The notes beneath the pieces are model-generated. The model ran no database searches and was not told the origin of the DNA. It was given only the letters and a program-made list of their open reading frames with translations. A stretch of DNA of 64,000 nt from Actinokineospora auranticolor (GTDB taxonomy: Bacteria; Actinomycetota; Actinomycetes; Mycobacteriales; Pseudonocardiaceae), in the NCBI RefSeq assembly GCF_002934265.1, contig NZ_PTIX01000001.1, positions 558,001 through 622,000 of the forward strand, written 5' to 3'. Shown in pieces: positions 8,235 to 21,265 of this stretch. Within the stretch, counting starts at the first letter, position 1. The number at the start of each line of letters is the position of its first letter. The position numbers and the translations under genes are program-made.

Positions 8235-8873
8235 TCAGACCGTGCGCAGGACCGAGACGACCGTGCCGAGGATGACGGCGTTGTCACCGTCGATGACGTC
8301 GTACGCCGGGTTGCGCGGCTCCAGGTACACGTGGCCGCCGCGGCGGCGGTACACCTTGACCGTCGCCTCCTCGTCGATCATCGCCGCGACGATCTGCCCG
8401 GAGTGCGCCTCCGGGCCCTGCCGCACGACCACCATGTCGCCGTCGCAGATGGCCGCGTCGACCATCGAGTCGCCGCGCACCCGCAGCGCGAACACGGTGC
8501 CCCGGCCGGTCAGGTCCCTCGGCAGGGTCAGCACGTCGTCCACGTGCTCCTCCGCCGCGATCGGCACCCCCGCCGCGATGTCACCGACGACCGGCACGCT
8601 CACCGAGTCCCCGGACGACGGCTCGGCGGCCTGCCCGAGGAACCCCCGCACGTCGATCGGCCGGGCCACCCCGGCGCCGCGCCGCAGGAACCCCTTCTCC
8701 TCCAGGCTGGCCAGGTGCCTGCCCACGGCGGAGGCGGACAGCCCGACGGCCTCCGCGAGCTGCCGCGTGGTCGGGGAGTAGCCGTACTGCACGGCCCAGT
8801 CCCGGATGGCCACCAGGATCCCCTGCTGCCGCAACGGCAGCCCGGCCGCGTCCTCGAACTCCTCAGCGATCAC
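8235..8873 (-). CDS. LexA-like self-cleaving repressor (probable paralogue)
   Basis: This 212-residue protein has a LexA-type winged helix (ILVAIRDWAVQYGYSPTTRQ, then LAEAVGLSASAVGRHLASLE) and an S24 autoprotease domain with the A101-G102 cleavage pair (GDIAAGVPI), nucleophile S136 (RGDSMVDAAI) and K173 (EATVKVY). The recognition helix lacks the TSTSSV block of the housekeeping actinobacterial LexA, so it probably reads a different operator and is a paralogue. Its GTG start lies 11 bases inside the end of the caspase-helicase gene, implying one transcript and coupled translation. RecA-stimulated cleavage is expected from the family but not shown. Confidence 0.82.
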   Translation of the reverse strand: MIAEEFEDAAGLPLRQQGILVAIRDWAVQYGYSPTTRQLAEAVGLSASAVGRHLASLEEKGFLRRGAGVARPIDVRGFLGQAAEPSSGDSVSVPVVGDIAAGVPIAAEEHVDDVLTLPRDLTGRGTVFALRVRGDSMVDAAICDGDMVVVRQGPEAHSGQIVAAMIDEEATVKVYRRRGGHVYLEPRNPAYDVIDGDNAVILGTVVSVLRTV

Positions 8874-11800
8874 CGCGCGATCCTACGGTGTCGTCACCGC
8901 CGGTCACCGGGCGCGTCGCGGTGTCCGAAGTGGAGGCTGCGTCGAGGAGCCGGTCCAGCACGTCGAAGTGGCGCTGGCCCGTCCACAGCTCGCGGTTGCC
9001 GATGACGTACAACCGGCGCTTGGCACGGCTGGCGGCCACGTTGAGCAGGTTGGGCTTGCTCGCGGCCCACCGCCGGGAGCCCGCGCGGCGCGGGTCGCTG
9101 CCGAGCACCAGGACCACGATGTCGGCCTGCTTGCCCTGGGCCACGTGGACGGTGCCCGCGACCAGCCCGGGGAAGCGGCGGGCCCGGGTGCGGACCTCGT
9201 CGGCCACCGCGAGGAACGGCGCGATGACCATGACCTGGCCCATGTCCACGCCCAGCTTGTCCAGCGCGGCCAGCACCTGGTCCAGCTTGGCGCCCTCCTC
9301 GGGCACCCAGTGCCCGGCCGACCGCTCCGCGCGCACGTCCAGCCACTTCGACTCGGGCAGGGTCGGGAACCGCTGCGCGTAGGCGGCGCCCCCGCGCGCG
9401 CCGGTGGCGTGGATCATGAAGCCGTCGTAGGCGATCTCGTTGGCGATGCCGAACATCGGCTCGTCGCAGCGGCGGTGCACGCTCAGCGGCGTGCCCACCC
9501 AGATCCGGCCGTCGTCGGTGGGCAGCGACGTGCCCATGGGCGTGAGCCGGTCGGCCAGCCGCTGCACCGAGGTGCGGCGGGTGAGCCACTGCTCGTCGAC
9601 GCCGACCTCCCGCCGGATCGCCTGCTCGACCCGCAGCGGCACGGTCGTGATCGGCTCCAGTTGCAGCGGGTCGCCCACGATCACCGCGCGCCGCGCCCGC
9701 CACAGCGCGCCGACCACGCTCTGCGGTGTCGCCTGGCCCGCCTCGTCGACCAGCAGCCAGCCCAGCGACTCGCGGCCCAGGTGGCTGAACATCCGGGCGA
9801 ACGACGAGAAGGTGGTCGACACCACCGGGACGACCAGGAACAGCGACTGCCACGCCGCCCGCGCCGCCGCCTCGTCCAGGTTCGACGGCGCGGTCCCGGA
9901 CAGGATGTCCATCGCGCCCCGCAACGACTGCCGCAACTGCCGCGCGGTGTGGTGGATGAACACCTTGTGCAGCCGCAGCGCGGCCAGGAACAGCTCGGTG
10001 CGCGCCCGGTTCCACTCCGCGTCCGTCCACAGCGCGGTCAACTCGCGCCGCGACCGGTCGGTGAACCAGGTGGGGTCGGGGAAGTGCTTGCCGAGCAACT
10101 CGTGTCCCCGGGCCAGGACCGCGACCAAGGCGTTCAGCTTGTCGTCGGCGCGCCGCGCTTCCTCGTGGGCGGCGTGGGCGCTCGCGTCGGCGGTGGACGC
10201 CTCGTGGGAGAGGCGCCCGGCGGTGGTGCGCGCCGCGTGCAGTTCCCGCTCCGCCGTGGAGATCCCGCTCGCGAGGTGGTCGTCGCGCTCGCGCCAAGCG
10301 CGCGTGGCCTTGCCGAACGAGGTCAGCCAGGCCCAGAACCCGGGCTTGAAGCGGAGGTTCTCGGTGCGGTGGCGGGTCCGGGTCGCGTGCTCGCCGGTCC
10401 AGCCCCGCACGTGGCCGTCGGCCTCGGCGAACCGGGCCCGGGCGGCGTCCCGGGCCCGCGCGGCCCGGTCCGCCTCCTGGGCGCACCGCCGAGCGTGTTC
10501 CTCGGCCCGGGGCTTGGCGAGCAGCGTCCGGTGCAGTTCGTCCCGCTCGGCGCCCAGCGCCCGCGCCTTGGCCAGCGCTCGGTTGAACTCGACGATCGCG
10601 CCCGTCCACGAGGGCGGTGTGGATTTTTCGTAGTCCTTGAGGATCGCCATCAACCCGGAGCGGTCGTGCCGCGCCTTGCGGTCCCCGGTCGCGGGGCCGC
10701 GCGGCGGTGTGCGGAACCAGAACGCGTCGATGAACCGGGAGCGGTTGGCCTTGTTGCCCAGCCGCGCGGCCAGCAGCGCCCACGCGGTGTCCACCTCGTC
10801 GCCGCCCGGCTCGCCCGCCAGCAGCGCGGACCCGACGCCCGCGAAGTAGTCCACCGCGGCGGCGGGTGCCCGCCACCACTCGTCGATGGCGCCGCGGTCG
10901 GGGATCTCGTCGGTGACGTTCTCGACCGCGCCGTTGTTGGCCGACGCGACCACCACCTCGAACCCGGCCAGCTCCGGCCGCGGTCCGCGAACCCGCCGGA
11001 CGTAGTCCTCGACCTTCCACACGTGCGCGTCATCGGTGAACGCGTCACCCGGCACGACCAACGCGGCCAGCGCGCGACCCCGTTCCACCAGCAGCCCCGC
11101 GATCAGGTCGCGCAGCATCGTCGTCTTGCCGGTGCCGGGCGGGCCGTTCACGGCCAGCACGGTCCGGTCCGTGCCGCGCGCGGCCAGCGCGTTGTTGACC
11201 GCGAGCTGCTGCCCGAGCGCCAGCGGGTGTTCCGGGTCGCTCGGCCACCGGCCCAGCGGCACCCGGTTCGGGGCGGCGGCTTCGAGCACCGCGTCCAACC
11301 GGTCCCGGACGTCCACGCGTCCGAGGACGTCCAGCTCGGCGTCGTGGCGCAGGTAGTCGCGCAGCCCGGAGCCCACGTTGGCCGCCCTGACCTCGTCGGC
11401 GACCGCGGTCAGGGCGGCGGAGATCATGCTGTTGACGAAGTCCGCGCCGTCGGTGTTGTTGGCGTTGCGCGCGGCCACGATCTGGCTGTGGACCCGGATC
11501 TCACCGCGCGGAACCGCGGTGCCCAGCCGCACGACGTCGTTGGCGAGGCGGAAGCAGGCGGCCAGCGCCCGCTCGTCGAGCACCTCCGTCAGCTCGTGCA
11601 GCGTGCCGTTCTCCCTGGCCTCCTGCACGGACTCGTCATCCGGGCCGAGCAACGCCTCGAACCGGCCCTGGAACTCGTCGTTCGCCACGTCGAACCCCGT
11701 GAGCCACCCGGGCTCGTCCGGTCCGGGGCTCACCACGCGGCTGGTCGCCCACGCGCAGCCGGAGAGCACCTGGGAGTCCAGCAGCGGTCGGCCCTCGGCG

Positions 11801-13008
11801 TTGACGGTGAACGCGGCGAGGGTGCCGTCGCCCGCCGGGCGCTGGTCGTAGCTGTCCTCGTCGGAGGGGAACACCTGGTGCAGCAGGTCGAACACCGACT
11901 TCAGCGGGTGCGCGCCGAGGTAGACCACGTGCCGCCAGGCCTGCTTCGGGCCGAGTTCCCGCCGCGCCAGCGGGTGCCCGGGCTCCCAGGGCAGCGGTTT
12001 GCCCGGCTCCACCGTGCACACCTGCTTGCGCGGGTCCGCCTTCGGCGCGGACTGCGGGCTGAACAGCTCGACCATGTTCCAGAACTCGACGACCCGCGCG
12101 CGGTCCTCCTCGGGGCCCCGGCTCGCGGTCGCGGTGTCCGGTCGGGCGGCGCGGGTCGGGAAGGTGACCGGGTGCACGACGTTCGCGTCGGCGAGCGCTT
12201 GGGCCAGCGGTCCGACCCGGCTGCTCTTCGGGCGCGGCGGGGGCGGGGCGAGGTCCGCGACGGTCGTCGGGTCGACCGCGCCGCCCATGAGGACGAGGTG
12301 GTTGGCGGTGTCGGTCGCCCGGCGGTGGGGTTCGGGCAGGCCGAGCCCGCGCAGGTGCTCGCGCACGTGTTCGTGGATGCCGTCCAGCGTCAGCGGTGTG
12401 GGGCTGGCGAAGGCGCGGAGCAGGGCGTCGGTGAACGCGGTCAGCCCGGCGTCGGGCGGGGCGAATGACGGCTCGGTGGCCGAGCTGGAGGTCAGGGTGT
12501 AGGTGCCGGTGACGTCCAGCTGGCCCGCCACCAGGGCGTCCGGGGCGGACATGGCGGCGATGGCGCGGCCGGAGAAGCAGCAGTCCAGGATCAGCACCCT
12601 GGCCCGGGCGCGGGCCTGGCCGAGGTCCTGCTTGATCCGCGAGATCGCGATGCCGGTGTAGCCGACGTTGGCCTGCTCGGTCTCGGACAGCGCCAGGTGC
12701 AGGCTGCCGTCGTCGTCGAGCAGACCGTGGCCGGAGTAGTAGACGAGCAGCACGTCCGCGGCCTCGGTGGCGGCGCGGCTGAGCGCGGTGCCGAAGCCCG
12801 CCATGGTCGCCGGGTGCGCGCCGTCGCCGACCACCAGGCAGTGCTCGGGCGCGAAAAGACCTGCCCCGGGTGCGGAAAGCGCTTTTCGCATTGCGGTGAC
12901 GTTGCCCGCGACCGCCGGAATCGACGCCAGCTCGGTCGACCGGTATTCGCTCGCACCGATCAGCACGGCCCGCGACGCGCCGCGCTCCGGGAACCACCGC
13001 TCGGTCAT
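8863..13008 (-). CDS. Caspase-like peptidase fused to SF1 helicase
   Basis: This 1381-residue protein has three parts. Residues 1-245 are a C14 caspase-like domain with the catalytic dyad H94 (YYSGHG) and C144 (LDCCFSG). Residues 300-580 form a middle domain I do not recognise. From about 596 runs an SF1 (Upf1/Dna2-like) helicase: Q-motif LALGQQLAVNNAL, Walker A GPPGTGKTT (622-630), a long Ala/Arg/Glu-rich coiled insert, Walker B LLVDEAGQATPQ, motif III GDPLQLEP, then HVAQGKQAD and NVAASRAKRRLY as motifs V and VI. All key residues look intact. It is followed by the overlapping LexA-like gene. A nucleic-acid-sensing or remodelling module that activates a protease is the natural reading, as in prokaryotic conflict systems. 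ATG 13008 follows AAGGTGGG. Confidence 0.85.
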   Translation of the reverse strand: MTERWFPERGASRAVLIGASEYRSTELASIPAVAGNVTAMRKALSAPGAGLFAPEHCLVVGDGAHPATMAGFGTALSRAATEAADVLLVYYSGHGLLDDDGSLHLALSETEQANVGYTGIAISRIKQDLGQARARARVLILDCCFSGRAIAAMSAPDALVAGQLDVTGTYTLTSSSATEPSFAPPDAGLTAFTDALLRAFASPTPLTLDGIHEHVREHLRGLGLPEPHRRATDTANHLVLMGGAVDPTTVADLAPPPPRPKSSRVGPLAQALADANVVHPVTFPTRAARPDTATASRGPEEDRARVVEFWNMVELFSPQSAPKADPRKQVCTVEPGKPLPWEPGHPLARRELGPKQAWRHVVYLGAHPLKSVFDLLHQVFPSDEDSYDQRPAGDGTLAAFTVNAEGRPLLDSQVLSGCAWATSRVVSPGPDEPGWLTGFDVANDEFQGRFEALLGPDDESVQEARENGTLHELTEVLDERALAACFRLANDVVRLGTAVPRGEIRVHSQIVAARNANNTDGADFVNSMISAALTAVADEVRAANVGSGLRDYLRHDAELDVLGRVDVRDRLDAVLEAAAPNRVPLGRWPSDPEHPLALGQQLAVNNALAARGTDRTVLAVNGPPGTGKTTMLRDLIAGLLVERGRALAALVVPGDAFTDDAHVWKVEDYVRRVRGPRPELAGFEVVVASANNGAVENVTDEIPDRGAIDEWWRAPAAAVDYFAGVGSALLAGEPGGDEVDTAWALLAARLGNKANRSRFIDAFWFRTPPRGPATGDRKARHDRSGLMAILKDYEKSTPPSWTGAIVEFNRALAKARALGAERDELHRTLLAKPRAEEHARRCAQEADRAARARDAARARFAEADGHVRGWTGEHATRTRHRTENLRFKPGFWAWLTSFGKATRAWRERDDHLASGISTAERELHAARTTAGRLSHEASTADASAHAAHEEARRADDKLNALVAVLARGHELLGKHFPDPTWFTDRSRRELTALWTDAEWNRARTELFLAALRLHKVFIHHTARQLRQSLRGAMDILSGTAPSNLDEAAARAAWQSLFLVVPVVSTTFSSFARMFSHLGRESLGWLLVDEAGQATPQSVVGALWRARRAVIVGDPLQLEPITTVPLRVEQAIRREVGVDEQWLTRRTSVQRLADRLTPMGTSLPTDDGRIWVGTPLSVHRRCDEPMFGIANEIAYDGFMIHATGARGGAAYAQRFPTLPESKWLDVRAERSAGHWVPEEGAKLDQVLAALDKLGVDMGQVMVIAPFLAVADEVRTRARRFPGLVAGTVHVAQGKQADIVVLVLGSDPRRAGSRRWAASKPNLLNVAASRAKRRLYVIGNRELWTGQRHFDVLDRLLDAASTSDTATRPVTGGDDTVGSRGDR

Positions 13009-13420
13009 CCGCCCACCTTCCCGGGGTGCGGCAGGCGGGTCCATCGGCAGGTCGGGCTCGTGATCAACACAGTCGGCATTATGCAGGTGGGACGGTTGGC
13101 CCGTGGCCGGAGGGCACAATGCGAATACTTCTCCGCACATCTGGAACAGTCGACGAACAATCCGCTGGGCCACTCGGGGCAATCGGTCGAACAAATGAGC
13201 GGTGCGGAGTCGGGAATCGGAGGGCGGTGTCCGTGAACGGGCGCGTGTCGGGGTTGGACCGCGGGGCGGCGCGCACTCGGACAAAGCGCCTGAACCGGCC
13301 GGGGGTGATCCCGTTCGGGGCGTGGTCCGGATCACCGGGCACCGGAAACCCCCTCCCCTCCAAGGCCGGTGTTCACTACTCTCCCCGGGGAAACCAGTCG
13401 CGAGTAGAGGGGAACGGGCC
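13009..13420. other. 412-base intergenic region between divergent units
   Basis: No open frame here has coding character or family resemblance. Two GTCGAACAAA/GACGAACAAT-like GAAC half-sites occur near 13152 and 13188, but neither completes a standard actinobacterial SOS box. The right half must hold the promoter for the leader peptide and EF-G paralogue, the left half that of the caspase-helicase operon. Confidence 0.4.
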
Positions 13421-13601: not shown

Positions 13602-15638
13602 ATGCGCACCGACCTGGCCGCTGTTCGCAACCGCGGCATCCTCGCCCACGTGGACGCGGGCAAGACCACCGTCACCGAGCGGATCCTCTACGCCACCGGC
13701 ACGACCCACAAGCGCGGTGAGGTCCACGACGGCACCACCGTCACCGACTTCGACTCGCAGGAGCGTGACCGCGGCATCACCATCTTCGCCGCCGCGGTGA
13801 GCTGCGCGTGGCGCGGGCACCGCGTCAACCTCATCGACACGCCCGGCCACGTCGATTTCGCCGACGAGGTCGAGCGGTCGCTGCGGGTGCTCGACGGCGC
13901 GGTCGCGGTGTTCGACGCCGTGGCCGGTGTCGAGCCGCAGAGCGAATCCGTGTGGCGGCAGGCGGATCGGCACGGTGTGCCGCGGATCGCGTTCGTCAAC
14001 AAGCTCGACCGGCTCGGCGCCGACCTCGACACCGCGGTCGAGTCGATCCGGCGGCGGCTGCACCCGGTGCCGCTGGTCGTCCAGCTGCCCATCGGGCGGG
14101 AGGACGCTTTCACCGGCCTGGTCGACCTCGTCCACATGACGGCGTTGACCTGGGTGGACGACACCGTCCACGTGGGACGGATCCCGGACGACCTCGTGGC
14201 CGAGGCGCGGCGGCGGCGCGGCCTGCTCGACGAGGCCGTCGCCGAGTCGCACCCCGCCGCGCTGGAGGAGTTCTGCGCGACGGCGACGATCTCCGCCGGG
14301 ACCATGGAGACCGCGCTGCGGGACCTGACCCGCAGTGGGGACGGACTCGTCGTGCTGTGTGGTTCGGCCTATCGCAACCGCGGTATCGAACCGCTGCTGG
14401 ACGCGGTCGCCGCGTACCTGCCGTCGCCGCTGGACGTGCCGCCGGTTCGGGGCACGGTCGACGGCGTCGAGCGGGAGCGCCCGGCGGACCCGACCGCGCC
14501 GTTCGCGGCGCTGGTCTTCAAGGTCGTCGCGGCGCCGACGGGCCGGATGACGTACCTGCGCGTCTACTCGGGCACGCTGCGCAAGGGGGAGGAGGTGCGG
14601 GACGTGGGCGCCCGTCGGAACGAACGCGTCGCGCGGATCCTCCGGATCCAGGCCGACCGCCACTCCGAAGTGGACGAAGCCGTCGCCGGTGACATCGTCG
14701 CGGTGTCCGGGCCGAAGTCCGCCCGGGTCGGCGCGACGCTGTGCGCGCCGGGTGCCCCGCTGCTCCTCGAACCACCGGTCGCGGGCGACCCCGTGGTCGC
14801 CGTGTCCGTCGAACCGCGTCGGGCGGCCGACAGCGGCAAGGTCACCGCGGCCCTGGCCGCGCTGGTCGAGGAGGACCCGTCGCTGGTGCTGCGGACGGAC
14901 CCGGAGACCGGGCAGACCGTGCTGTCCGGCCTCGGCGAGCTGCACCTGGAGGTGGCGGTGGAGAAGGTGCGCCGCGCCCGGGGGCTGGAGATCGCCGTCG
15001 GTCGGCCGAAGGTGGCCTACCGGGAGACCGTCGAGCGCGGTGTGACGGGCCTCCGTTACCGGCACGTCAAGCAGGACGGCGGCGCCGGCCAGTTCGCCCA
15101 CGTCGTGCTCGACGTCGAGCCGCTGGCGCCCGGCGAGTTCGAGTTCCGGTCCACTGTGGTCGGTGGCGCCGTGCCGCGCGAGTTCGTGCGCGCGGCCGAG
15201 ACGGGCTGCCGGGACGCGCTGGCCGACGGCCCGCTCGGCGGCCACCCGGTGACCGGCCTGCGGGTGACGCTCACCGACGGCGCCACCCACGTCAAGGACT
15301 CCTCGGAGTTGGCGTTCCGCGCCGCCGGTCGGTTCGGTCTGCGGGAGGCGCTGCGCGCGAGCGCGATGCGCTTGCTGGAGCCCGTGGTCGAGGTCGTGGT
15401 GACGGTCCCGGACGACGCCGTCGGCACGGTCCTCGGCGACCTCGCCGCCCGGCGCGGCAAGGTCGTGGCGTCGGCGGTCCGCGCGGGCACCGCGGTGGTC
15501 ACGGCCACCGTCCCCCTGGCGGAGCTGTTCGGCTACGCGAACCGGCTCCGCGGCCGCACCCACGGCCGCGGCACCTTCACCACCCGCCCGACCGGCTACG
15601 CCCCCGTCCCCGACGCGGTCGTGGCCACGACGGTCTGA
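13602..15638 (+). CDS. Elongation factor G paralogue (EF-G2-like GTPase)
   Basis: This 678-residue translational GTPase has G1 AHVDAGKT (15-22), switch I RDRGIT ending at T60, G3 DTPGH (79-83) and G4 NKLD (133-136), followed by EF-G domains II-V, including KQDGGAGQFAHVV, DSSELAFRAAG and the end region PLAELFGYANRLRGRTHGRG. The length and domain V ending fit EF-G rather than TetM-type ribosomal protection proteins, although it is shorter than housekeeping EF-G (about 700) and stands away from str-operon genes such as rpsL, rpsG and tuf. It is therefore a second EF-G, possibly stress- or antibiotic-responsive given the leader peptide and the ABC exporter downstream. Confidence 0.85.
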   Translation: MRTDLAAVRNRGILAHVDAGKTTVTERILYATGTTHKRGEVHDGTTVTDFDSQERDRGITIFAAAVSCAWRGHRVNLIDTPGHVDFADEVERSLRVLDGAVAVFDAVAGVEPQSESVWRQADRHGVPRIAFVNKLDRLGADLDTAVESIRRRLHPVPLVVQLPIGREDAFTGLVDLVHMTALTWVDDTVHVGRIPDDLVAEARRRRGLLDEAVAESHPAALEEFCATATISAGTMETALRDLTRSGDGLVVLCGSAYRNRGIEPLLDAVAAYLPSPLDVPPVRGTVDGVERERPADPTAPFAALVFKVVAAPTGRMTYLRVYSGTLRKGEEVRDVGARRNERVARILRIQADRHSEVDEAVAGDIVAVSGPKSARVGATLCAPGAPLLLEPPVAGDPVVAVSVEPRRAADSGKVTAALAALVEEDPSLVLRTDPETGQTVLSGLGELHLEVAVEKVRRARGLEIAVGRPKVAYRETVERGVTGLRYRHVKQDGGAGQFAHVVLDVEPLAPGEFEFRSTVVGGAVPREFVRAAETGCRDALADGPLGGHPVTGLRVTLTDGATHVKDSSELAFRAAGRFGLREALRASAMRLLEPVVEVVVTVPDDAVGTVLGDLAARRGKVVASAVRAGTAVVTATVPLAELFGYANRLRGRTHGRGTFTTRPTGYAPVPDAVVATTV

Positions 15639-18901: not shown

Positions 18902-21265
18902 GTCACACCAACCCGTGCGCCCAAACACGTCGTGTTCCTGCCGTACCCGTCGGCCGGGCACGTCACGCCGACGCTCGCCGTCGCCGAGGAGCTGATCCGC
19001 CGCGGCCACCGGGTGACCTACGCGGTGACCCCCGCCGTGGCCGCGACGGCGGCGGGGACCGGCGCGGCGGTGATCGAGTACGACACCGCGCTGATGTCGA
19101 CGGTCACCCCGCCCGCCAAGTGGTCCGACGACGAGGTGGGCCGCGCGTTCCTCCAGTACGTCTCCGAGATCATCGGCACGACCGCCGCCATCGAGCGGCA
19201 GCTCGCGGACCGCGCCGACGCCATCGCCTACGACTCCACGGTCTGGGCGCCCGGCCGCGTGCTCGGCCGCAAGTGGGGTGTGCCGACCTGCCAGCTCCTG
19301 CCCGTCTTCGCCTCCAACGAGACCTACTCGCTCATGCGCGCCCAGGTCGACCACGCGGGCCACCCCGAACTCGCCGCCGACCACCCGGCTGTCCTCGCCT
19401 TCGGCGAGCTGATGCGCCGGTTCCTCGCCGACAACGGCCTCGACCCGGACGACGCCGACGAGATCACCACCGGGAAGGGTGAGCGGAGCCTGGTCTTCCT
19501 GCCCCGCTCCCTCCAGCCGCACGGCGACACCTTCGGCCCGGACCACCTCTTCGTCGGCCCCTGCCCCCGGCCCGGCCGCGCGCCCACCTGGGCCCCGCCC
19601 GGCGACGGCCGACCGGTCGCGTTCGTCTCGCTCGGCACCGTGGTCAACGACCAGCCGGAGTTCTTCCGCGTCTGCGCCGACGCCCTGGGCGACCTGCCGT
19701 GGCACGTCGTCCTCGCGACCGGCGACGCGGAGGTCCCGCCGCTGCCCGCGAACTTCGAGGCGCACCCCTGGGTCCCCTACGACGACGTCCTCCCGCACGC
19801 CGATGTCTTCGTGACGCAGGCGGGCATGGGCGGGATCCTCGCCGCGGGCCGCCACGCCACGCCGCTGGTCGTCGCCCCGTTCCAGCCGGAGCAGCGGATC
19901 AACGCGGCCCGCCTCGTGGAGCTGGGACTCGGGCGGCGCGTCGACCCGAGCGGCCTCACCGCCGCCGACCTCCGCGACGCCGTGCGCGCGGCGGTGGCCG
20001 GCGGGCGGGCTCATTTGGGGGCCTTCCGAGCTGACATCGCCGCAGCGGGGGGCGCGCCGAGGGCCGCGGACTTCCTCGAGTCCGGCCTCGACGACACCGC
20101 CATCGACCTGCCACGACGCCGTGCCTGTCCCTTCGACCCGCCCACCGGCTACCGCGATCTCGCCGCGGAGCGGCCCAGGCGGTTGAGCTTCCCCGGTGGC
20201 GGTGAGGGCTGGTTGGTCACCCGGTACGAACACGCCAAGGCCGTGCTCTCCGACGCGCGGTTCAGCCACCGCAGCGAACTCCTCGCGTCGCCGCTGCCCC
20301 CACCGTTCGAACTCCCGCCCGGCGACCACCGTCCGCCTGCCGCCGAACCGGGCGCGTTCAACAAGATGGACCCGCCTGACCACACGCACTACCGGCGGGT
20401 GATCGGTCACCTGTTCAGCCCGCGCGCCGCGACGGACCTGCGTCCCGCCATCGAGGCCGTCGCCAGTGAACTCCTCGATGCCATGGCCGTCCAGGGGGCC
20501 GCCGACCTGGTGCGTGACTTCGCCCGTCCGCTGCCCGCCCGGGTCATCTTCGACCTGCTCGGCGTGCCGGTCGAGATCCGGGATCCGTTGCAGGACAACC
20601 TCGACACCATCATGCGCCTCCAGATGACTCTTGAGGAACTCATCGACGCGGTGACCGTCGTGGGCCAGCTCCTTGATGACATGGTCGCGAACGGACTGTC
20701 GACTGGAGCGCTCGCGGACCTGGCTGCCCGGGGCGACCTCAGCGCGGTCGAACTCCGCAACCTGGCCTGGGCGCTGCTCGGCGGCGGCACCGACACGACG
20801 TCCAACATGATCTCGCTCGGCACGTTCGCCCTATTGGTGGATCCGGCTCGGCGCGCGGGCTTGTTGTCCGATGTGGACAATACGGTGGAAGAACTGTTGC
20901 GGTACCTCACGATCTCCCAGTTCGGCGCCAGCCGGTGCGCGCTGGAGGACGTCCAGGTCGGCGGGGTCCTCGTGCGAGCGGGGGAGACCGTGGTGGTGTC
21001 GCTGCCCGCCGCCAACCGCGACGCGGCGCGCTTCCCCGAGCCGGACCGCCTCGACCTCGCGCGGGACGTGCGGGGTCACCTGGCGTTCGGGCACGGCGTG
21101 CACAAGTGCGTCGGCCAGTACCTGGCCCGCGAAACGCTGCGCGTCGCGTACCCGGCGCTGTTCACCCGGTTCCCCGATCTGCGCCTGGCCGTCGAGCCGG
21201 AGGAGTTGCGATTGCGCGACGACATGGACCACTACGGCGTGCACGAGATGCCGGTGACCTGGTGA
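18899..21265 (+). CDS. Glycosyltransferase-cytochrome P450 fusion protein
   Basis: This 788-residue uninterrupted frame joins two enzymes. Residues 1-390 are an MGT-type GT-B glycosyltransferase (VVFLPYPSAGHVTPTL with acceptor-side His; VAFVSLGTVVND linker; EQ in PEQRINAARL), but the donor HAG motif reads TQAGMGG, with Q307 instead of His. From about 406 (RRRACPFDPPTGYRDL) to the end is a complete bacterial P450: I-helix GGGTDTTSN, ExxR in EELLRYL, and heme motif FGHGVHKCVG with C737. In macrolide pathways glycosyltransferases such as DesVII/EryCIII need a separate P450-like helper (DesVIII/EryCII) that has lost its cysteine; here the P450 keeps its cysteine and is fused. It overlaps the next ABC gene (GTGA). 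Confidence 0.87.
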   Translation: MVTPTRAPKHVVFLPYPSAGHVTPTLAVAEELIRRGHRVTYAVTPAVAATAAGTGAAVIEYDTALMSTVTPPAKWSDDEVGRAFLQYVSEIIGTTAAIERQLADRADAIAYDSTVWAPGRVLGRKWGVPTCQLLPVFASNETYSLMRAQVDHAGHPELAADHPAVLAFGELMRRFLADNGLDPDDADEITTGKGERSLVFLPRSLQPHGDTFGPDHLFVGPCPRPGRAPTWAPPGDGRPVAFVSLGTVVNDQPEFFRVCADALGDLPWHVVLATGDAEVPPLPANFEAHPWVPYDDVLPHADVFVTQAGMGGILAAGRHATPLVVAPFQPEQRINAARLVELGLGRRVDPSGLTAADLRDAVRAAVAGGRAHLGAFRADIAAAGGAPRAADFLESGLDDTAIDLPRRRACPFDPPTGYRDLAAERPRRLSFPGGGEGWLVTRYEHAKAVLSDARFSHRSELLASPLPPPFELPPGDHRPPAAEPGAFNKMDPPDHTHYRRVIGHLFSPRAATDLRPAIEAVASELLDAMAVQGAADLVRDFARPLPARVIFDLLGVPVEIRDPLQDNLDTIMRLQMTLEELIDAVTVVGQLLDDMVANGLSTGALADLAARGDLSAVELRNLAWALLGGGTDTTSNMISLGTFALLVDPARRAGLLSDVDNTVEELLRYLTISQFGASRCALEDVQVGGVLVRAGETVVVSLPAANRDAARFPEPDRLDLARDVRGHLAFGHGVHKCVGQYLARETLRVAYPALFTRFPDLRLAVEPEELRLRDDMDHYGVHEMPVTW

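Follow-up and report, generated by a model that had tools for sequence, protein, structure and literature searches.

What might a bacterial protein do in which a caspase-type protease and a superfamily 1 (SF1) helicase share one chain, and does the LexA-type repressor whose start overlaps its stop codon belong to the same system? These questions are raised by a gene in the window analysed here, a 64,000-nucleotide stretch of Actinokineospora auranticolor DNA (contig NZ_PTIX01000001.1, positions 558,001 to 622,000). A preliminary description of the locus had seen in it a suicide module triggered by damage or phage, with protease, helicase and repressor acting together. One half of that picture stands in part – a nucleic-acid-handling helicase fused to a death-type protease, with an accessory distribution and with kin among the helicases and caspases of known or proposed conflict systems – while the other, the link to LexA, has to be given up. 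We read the caspase-helicase as a one-gene accessory conflict protein, most likely anti-phage, in which the helicase would gate the caspase, and assign this reading a probability of roughly 0.5.

Architecture and conservation of the caspase-helicase

The gene is a single open reading frame on the minus strand, running from an ATG at 13008 to a stop at 8863, in which the following parts can be told apart:

8863..13008, minus strand: caspase-helicase gene, 1381 amino acids, ATG start
12349..12975, minus strand: EACC1-associated-type caspase domain, residues 12–220, with H94 and C144 (model NF047832; dyad invariant in four of four orthologues)
12109..12273, minus strand: Pro-rich variable linker, residues 246–300 (mean pairwise identity 42%, versus 64% for the caspase)
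11179..12108, minus strand: N-terminal part of the helicase module, residues 301–610 (relatives' reading frames; predicted structure)
10639..11178, minus strand: first helicase segment, with Walker A at residues 622–629 (motifs, orthologue alignment, model)
10084..10608, minus strand: pair of long helices separating Walker A from Walker B, residues 801–886 and 900–975 (predicted structure)
8959..10053, minus strand: remainder of the superfamily 1B (SF1B) helicase core, residues 986–1350, with Walker B and motifs III, V and VI (motifs, model)

Both enzymes are as complete as the preliminary description had claimed. The caspase dyad is intact, within SGHG (residues 92–95, H94) and DCCFSG (142–147, C144), and SF1 motifs I, II, III, V and VI are all present, the helicase sequence containing GPPGTGKT (622–629), DEAGQ (from 1088), GDPLQLEP (from 1112), HVAQGKQAD (from 1288) and NVAASRAK (from 1323). 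Residues 12–220 match the curated model NF047832 (caspase_w_EACC1) at 211.5 bits against a cut-off of 140, and the Pfam families AAA_11, AAA_12 and Peptidase_C14 all score above their cut-offs. C144 is the likely nucleophile, since it is invariant together with H94 in the four orthologues and the neighbouring Cys143 is replaced by Ser in one.

Full-length orthologues are present in three other genomes of the genus (G005, G006 and G012); the caspase-helicase thus occurs in 4 of 16 genus genomes, an accessory distribution. Because these three proteins are 55–59% identical to the window protein over their full length, the fusion is not a product of chance. All four fusions are full-length open frames with invariant catalytic motifs – H94, C144, Walker A, Walker B and motif VI are kept throughout – and conservation is highest in the caspase and in the helicase core. 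Other caspases of the genus sit in separate open frames of different lengths. A quick-method tree built from 44 module sequences groups the four caspase-fused ones in a single clade (support 100), so that one fusion event is enough to account for them.

The helicase module and its relatives

Between the caspase and the helicase motifs, the preliminary description had left an unrecognised middle domain (about residues 301–610), which is better regarded as belonging to the helicase family itself, whose N-terminal part it forms. It opens with an FWxxVExFSPQ-like motif, close to the point where most stand-alone relatives begin as well, and the UPF1-type structural alignment of the full helicase model starts at the model's own beginning, the alignments to UPF1 and IGHMBP2 opening at model residues 43–47, that is, residues 297–301 of the window protein (range ends only). 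The region may correspond to the accessory (1B/stalk) region of UPF1-type helicases, although residues 301–610, compared alone, gave no match. The fold of the whole helicase is predicted to be of the UPF1 type, and the nearest solved relatives by profile are SMUBP-2/IGHMBP2, UPF1 and DNA2; PADLOC's MkoC model, from the Mokosh defence system, matches the 1381-residue protein at 202 bits. The two long helices measure 86 and 76 residues in the predicted structure, whose mean predicted local distance difference test (pLDDT) score is 88.7; they lie in the least conserved large segment (residues 791–985, 35% identity) and may pair to form an antiparallel coiled-coil hairpin.

A genome contig collection of 84,980 species, scanned with two patterns drawn from the middle region, yielded 47 helicase relatives, 45 of them without a caspase; the two that are fused to one both come from Actinokineospora. 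One of the stand-alone relatives (L068) belongs to Saccharopolyspora spinosa. In 42 of the 45, at most 69 residues of open frame precede the module (start codons not determined), the remaining three (L074, L082 and L108) having longer open frames without a caspase match, and one flank (L111) holds a separate caspase gene. Six of the 47 (L067, L082, L098, L100, L105 and L109) have interrupted frames, in which sequencing errors are possible, and one (L102) runs into a contig end. A family-wide search, with two candidates scored per genome, matched 40 of 249 genomes – 4 at full length, 26 confined to the helicase part and 10 to the caspase part, as counted by hand from the rows – with stops inside the matches in eight genomes, where sequencing errors are again possible. 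A class-wide search at an E value of 1e-60 matched 14 of 394 genomes, caspase-only matches counted in.

Relatives also lie on plasmids and viral contigs. Matches were found in 745 plasmid records, partial ones included, mostly Klebsiella near-copies (547 records of that genus). Stand-alone helicases on Pseudomonas, Klebsiella and Delftia plasmids (L133, L134 and L135) lie near transfer or mobilisation genes, the Pseudomonas one adjoining umuD and a Y-family polymerase gene. Viral contigs of IMG/VR hold 16 loci, three of which (L140, L141 and L142) sit at or near contig ends, as expected for prophage-border cargo.

The overlapping LexA-type repressor

Two further features bear on whether the repressor belongs to the system:

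8235..8873, minus strand: LexA-type repressor, 212 amino acids, GTG start, judged a neighbour outside the system
8880..8885, minus strand: TAGGAT, a −10-like element 6 nucleotides ahead of the LexA GTG, in the 3′ end of the caspase-helicase gene (TAnnnT comparison)

The repressor's GTG does overlap the caspase-helicase stop, by 11 nucleotides, and its earlier designation as self-cleaving agrees with its motifs: a likely Ala-Gly cleavage site (AAG, residues 100–102) and a Ser-Lys dyad (Ser136 in GDSM, Lys173 in TVK) make it putatively cleavage-competent. It is matched by TIGR00498 (192 bits, cut-off 111), PF01726 (48 bits) and PF00717 (107 bits), and also matches solved LexA chains.

The co-expression and partnership once drawn from this overlap did not survive comparison with other genomes. 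LexA lies near the caspase-helicase in none of the three full-length orthologue loci and near none of the 47 helicase loci, and no caspase-helicase lies near LexA in the 20 LexA loci fetched (17–20 kb each; tblastn with an E value of 1e-20 and at least 40% query coverage), so that the order caspase, helicase, LexA recurred in none of these loci; what the searches returned were homologues without a LexA partner, an observation that the preliminary description had named beforehand as speaking against it. All 15 other genus genomes carry a LexA orthologue at 71–85% identity (in two pieces in G008), and in the three relatives with the caspase-helicase this orthologue is on another contig or some 550 kb away; the window genome itself holds two LexA matches, the other copy being 56% identical to the overlapping one. 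A TAnnnT element precedes the LexA start in 21 of 21 sequences, the window included, at 6 (12 sequences) or 7 (9 sequences) nucleotides, spacings of 5–8 having been tried after 6 alone failed; the background at 6 nucleotides is 21 of 10,998 GTG or ATG codons, true sites counted in. It reads as a leaderless LexA promoter, which in the window falls within the last codons of the caspase-helicase.

Given the absence of pairing in all three comparisons and this predicted promoter of its own, LexA is not a conserved partner. It looks like a separate conserved gene and an unrelated neighbour, the overlap being best understood as the point where two independent genes meet, with transcriptional read-through between them possible. 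Within 4.5 kb of LexA, even the most widely shared neighbour is matched by homologues in at most 8 of the 20 loci, although some loci have a few in common. The second LexA of these actinobacteria (L045–L064) is itself of interest as a gene whose leaderless promoter stays constant while its neighbours change between genomes.

EACC1 and a second caspase-helicase type

EACC1 is the partner that defines the named two-gene system of this caspase (PMC7159879, System 4 section), and it does accompany a second, different caspase-helicase type. The latter carries an EACC1-type caspase (164 bits in L038, 152 bits in L042) and a helicase that matches MkoC (213 and 199 bits) about as well as MkoA (190 and 191 bits); at an E value of 1e-50 it was found in 14 of 150 family genomes, in 12 of them with a whole or partial caspase. 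Of these 12 loci (L162–L173), 10 have an EACC1 gene immediately upstream, the exceptions being L167 and L169, and LexA is absent from all 12, about 1.5 kb having been examined on each side. PF19953 confirms the EACC1 of L038 (38 bits, cut-off 23.6), and the contig of L042, which belongs to the window's genus, lacks EACC1. Judged by gene neighbourhood, this type is a separate caspase-helicase system with EACC1 as its common partner: the partner that is common in any type is EACC1 and not LexA, and across the 16 genus genomes neither is a conserved partner of the window's type.

Proposed function and alternatives

In the reading that we favour, the UPF1/MkoC-type helicase (about residues 301–1350) would bind, and travel along, abnormal or invader RNA or DNA. 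On ligand binding or oligomerisation, the two-helix finger and the N-terminal helicase part would pass the signal to the EACC1-type caspase at the N terminus, and the activated caspase would cut itself and/or cellular targets and thereby halt growth or kill the cell. Ligand, activation step, protease substrate and outcome are all what we infer. A helicase-gated caspase is favoured because Hachiman and Canu provide precedents in print and because the distribution is accessory. A more specific version – a self-contained nucleic-acid receptor whose helicase directly gates the same-chain caspase without EACC1, a counterpart of signalling from sensor helicase to caspase, with the caspase in the effector place of the Mokosh PLD nuclease – is put forward tentatively, at somewhat less than even odds.

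Several observations weigh against this picture. The structural model comprises the helicase without the caspase, so that any contact between the two lies outside its view. The best MkoC stretch spans just positions 422–952 of the 1136 in the profile, only 34 residues are left after the last MkoC match, and there is no PLD nuclease, Pfam giving no PLD match at E values up to 0.1. A PF19953 search of the 16 genus genomes placed EACC1 at 28 sites, none beside the four caspase-helicases, the closest on a shared contig being about 34 kb away in G012. Finally, the preliminary description had looked to defence islands, and PADLOC, run without a control set on 142 proteins beside 41 stand-alone helicase loci and on 10 window neighbours, found no clear defence system.

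The main rival inverts the order of events: an upstream stimulus would activate the caspase as a switch, and cleavage of the linker would free the helicase as the effector. Such a caspase-first order is what Kaur et al. propose for EACC1 systems (PMC7159879, System 4 section), and both the variable, Pro-rich linker and the occurrence of stand-alone helicases without a caspase agree with it; however, none of the four copies has beside it an EACC1 sensor, the source from which the stimulus would come, and we consider this order possible but unlikely. Doubtful, and lower in our estimation, is a role outside defence, in which an accessory enzyme would serve RNA/DNA quality control or recombination and the caspase would tune its turnover. 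The predicted UPF1/IGHMBP2 fold would suit such an enzyme, as would stand-alone relatives in chromosomal neighbourhoods devoid of a clear defence signal, but patchy presence in the genus and relatives on conjugative plasmids and viral contigs fit conflict or mobile cargo better.

Control by LexA, with DNA damage releasing the caspase-helicase from repression, has the overlap in this genome and the intact cleavage motifs to recommend it; the missing pairings, LexA's own predicted promoter and the lack of any CGAACN4GTTCG box, one mismatch allowed, close to where either gene begins refute it as a conserved system and leave it very improbable. Scarcely credible, finally, is a decaying or chance fusion without function: interrupted frames among the stand-alone relatives, with their possible sequencing errors, point that way, yet the four fusions themselves are full-length open frames with invariant catalytic motifs, the three orthologues at 55–59% identity to the window protein.

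Upstream region and neighbouring genes

The caspase-helicase may have its own promoter:

13061..13084, minus strand: upstream block GCATAATG ... TTGATCA, candidate own promoter, similar before the four orthologues

A consensus of GCATRRTG, 9–12 nucleotides and TGATC precedes all four orthologues (by-eye comparison, not tested against chance), and the four loci have no other called gene in common. Divergent from the caspase-helicase lies an elongation factor G paralogue (13602–15638, plus strand; TIGR00484 at 749 bits, cut-off 659), which scores below the cut-offs of the listed tetracycline ribosomal protection models. Further along, a frame of 777 amino acids (18932–21265, plus strand) combines an MGT-type glycosyltransferase (TIGR01426 at 302 bits, cut-off 260, residues 5–384) with a half that resembles cytochrome P450 (residues 408–777 in the best match) and, more weakly, P450-derived glycosyltransferase activators – a possible fused pair of enzyme and activator, near other MGT-type and ABC exporter genes.

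Comparison with known systems

Mokosh-type helicases are known from defence. Mokosh type II consists of MkoC, an SF1 helicase with a C-terminal PLD nuclease, as described in the available part of PMC11672841; the window protein shares the MkoC-type helicase, with partial profile coverage, but has an N-terminal caspase instead of the C-terminal nuclease. From UPF1 and IGHMBP2 (SF1B) it differs in its larger N-terminal helicase part, its two long helices and the fused caspase.

The EACC1-caspase conflict system (System 4 of Kaur et al. 2020, PMC7159879) is described in that section as a two-gene arrangement with up to 50 variable domains, in which autoproteolysis is proposed to deploy variable C-terminal effectors. 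An actinobacterial setting, an N-terminal EACC1-associated-type caspase and a variable C-terminal domain, here a helicase, are common to both, whereas all four copies of the window's type lack the adjacent 5′ EACC1; a helicase is not named among the variable domains in the System 4 section text, Figure 7C and source data aside. Caspase and helicase in combination are already in print: Asplund-Samuelsson et al. 2012 (PMC3501461) list 12 of 671 bacterial metacaspases with helicase activity, in an account that, in its available part, describes neither this helicase family nor a mechanism or defence role. Canu (PMC12799240), with a caspase as an anti-phage defence protease, and Hachiman (PMC12278908), in which a sensor helicase gates an anti-phage effector, are described in the available text as using separate genes and nuclease effectors, and by our own reading of those descriptions their caspase and helicase families differ from the window's.

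Our literature searches found no earlier description of the MkoC-like helicase link, the genus-level fusion or the missing EACC1. As far as the available parts of these sources go, caspase-helicase combinations and the variable domains of EACC1 systems were known before, and what is new is an MkoC-like helicase fused to an EACC1-type caspase without EACC1. A tempting but false LexA operon is now separated from this conserved unit, and, set beside Mokosh, a same-chain caspase in the nuclease's place together with close relatives devoid of an effector offers a clean set in which to separate the sensing from the killing part.
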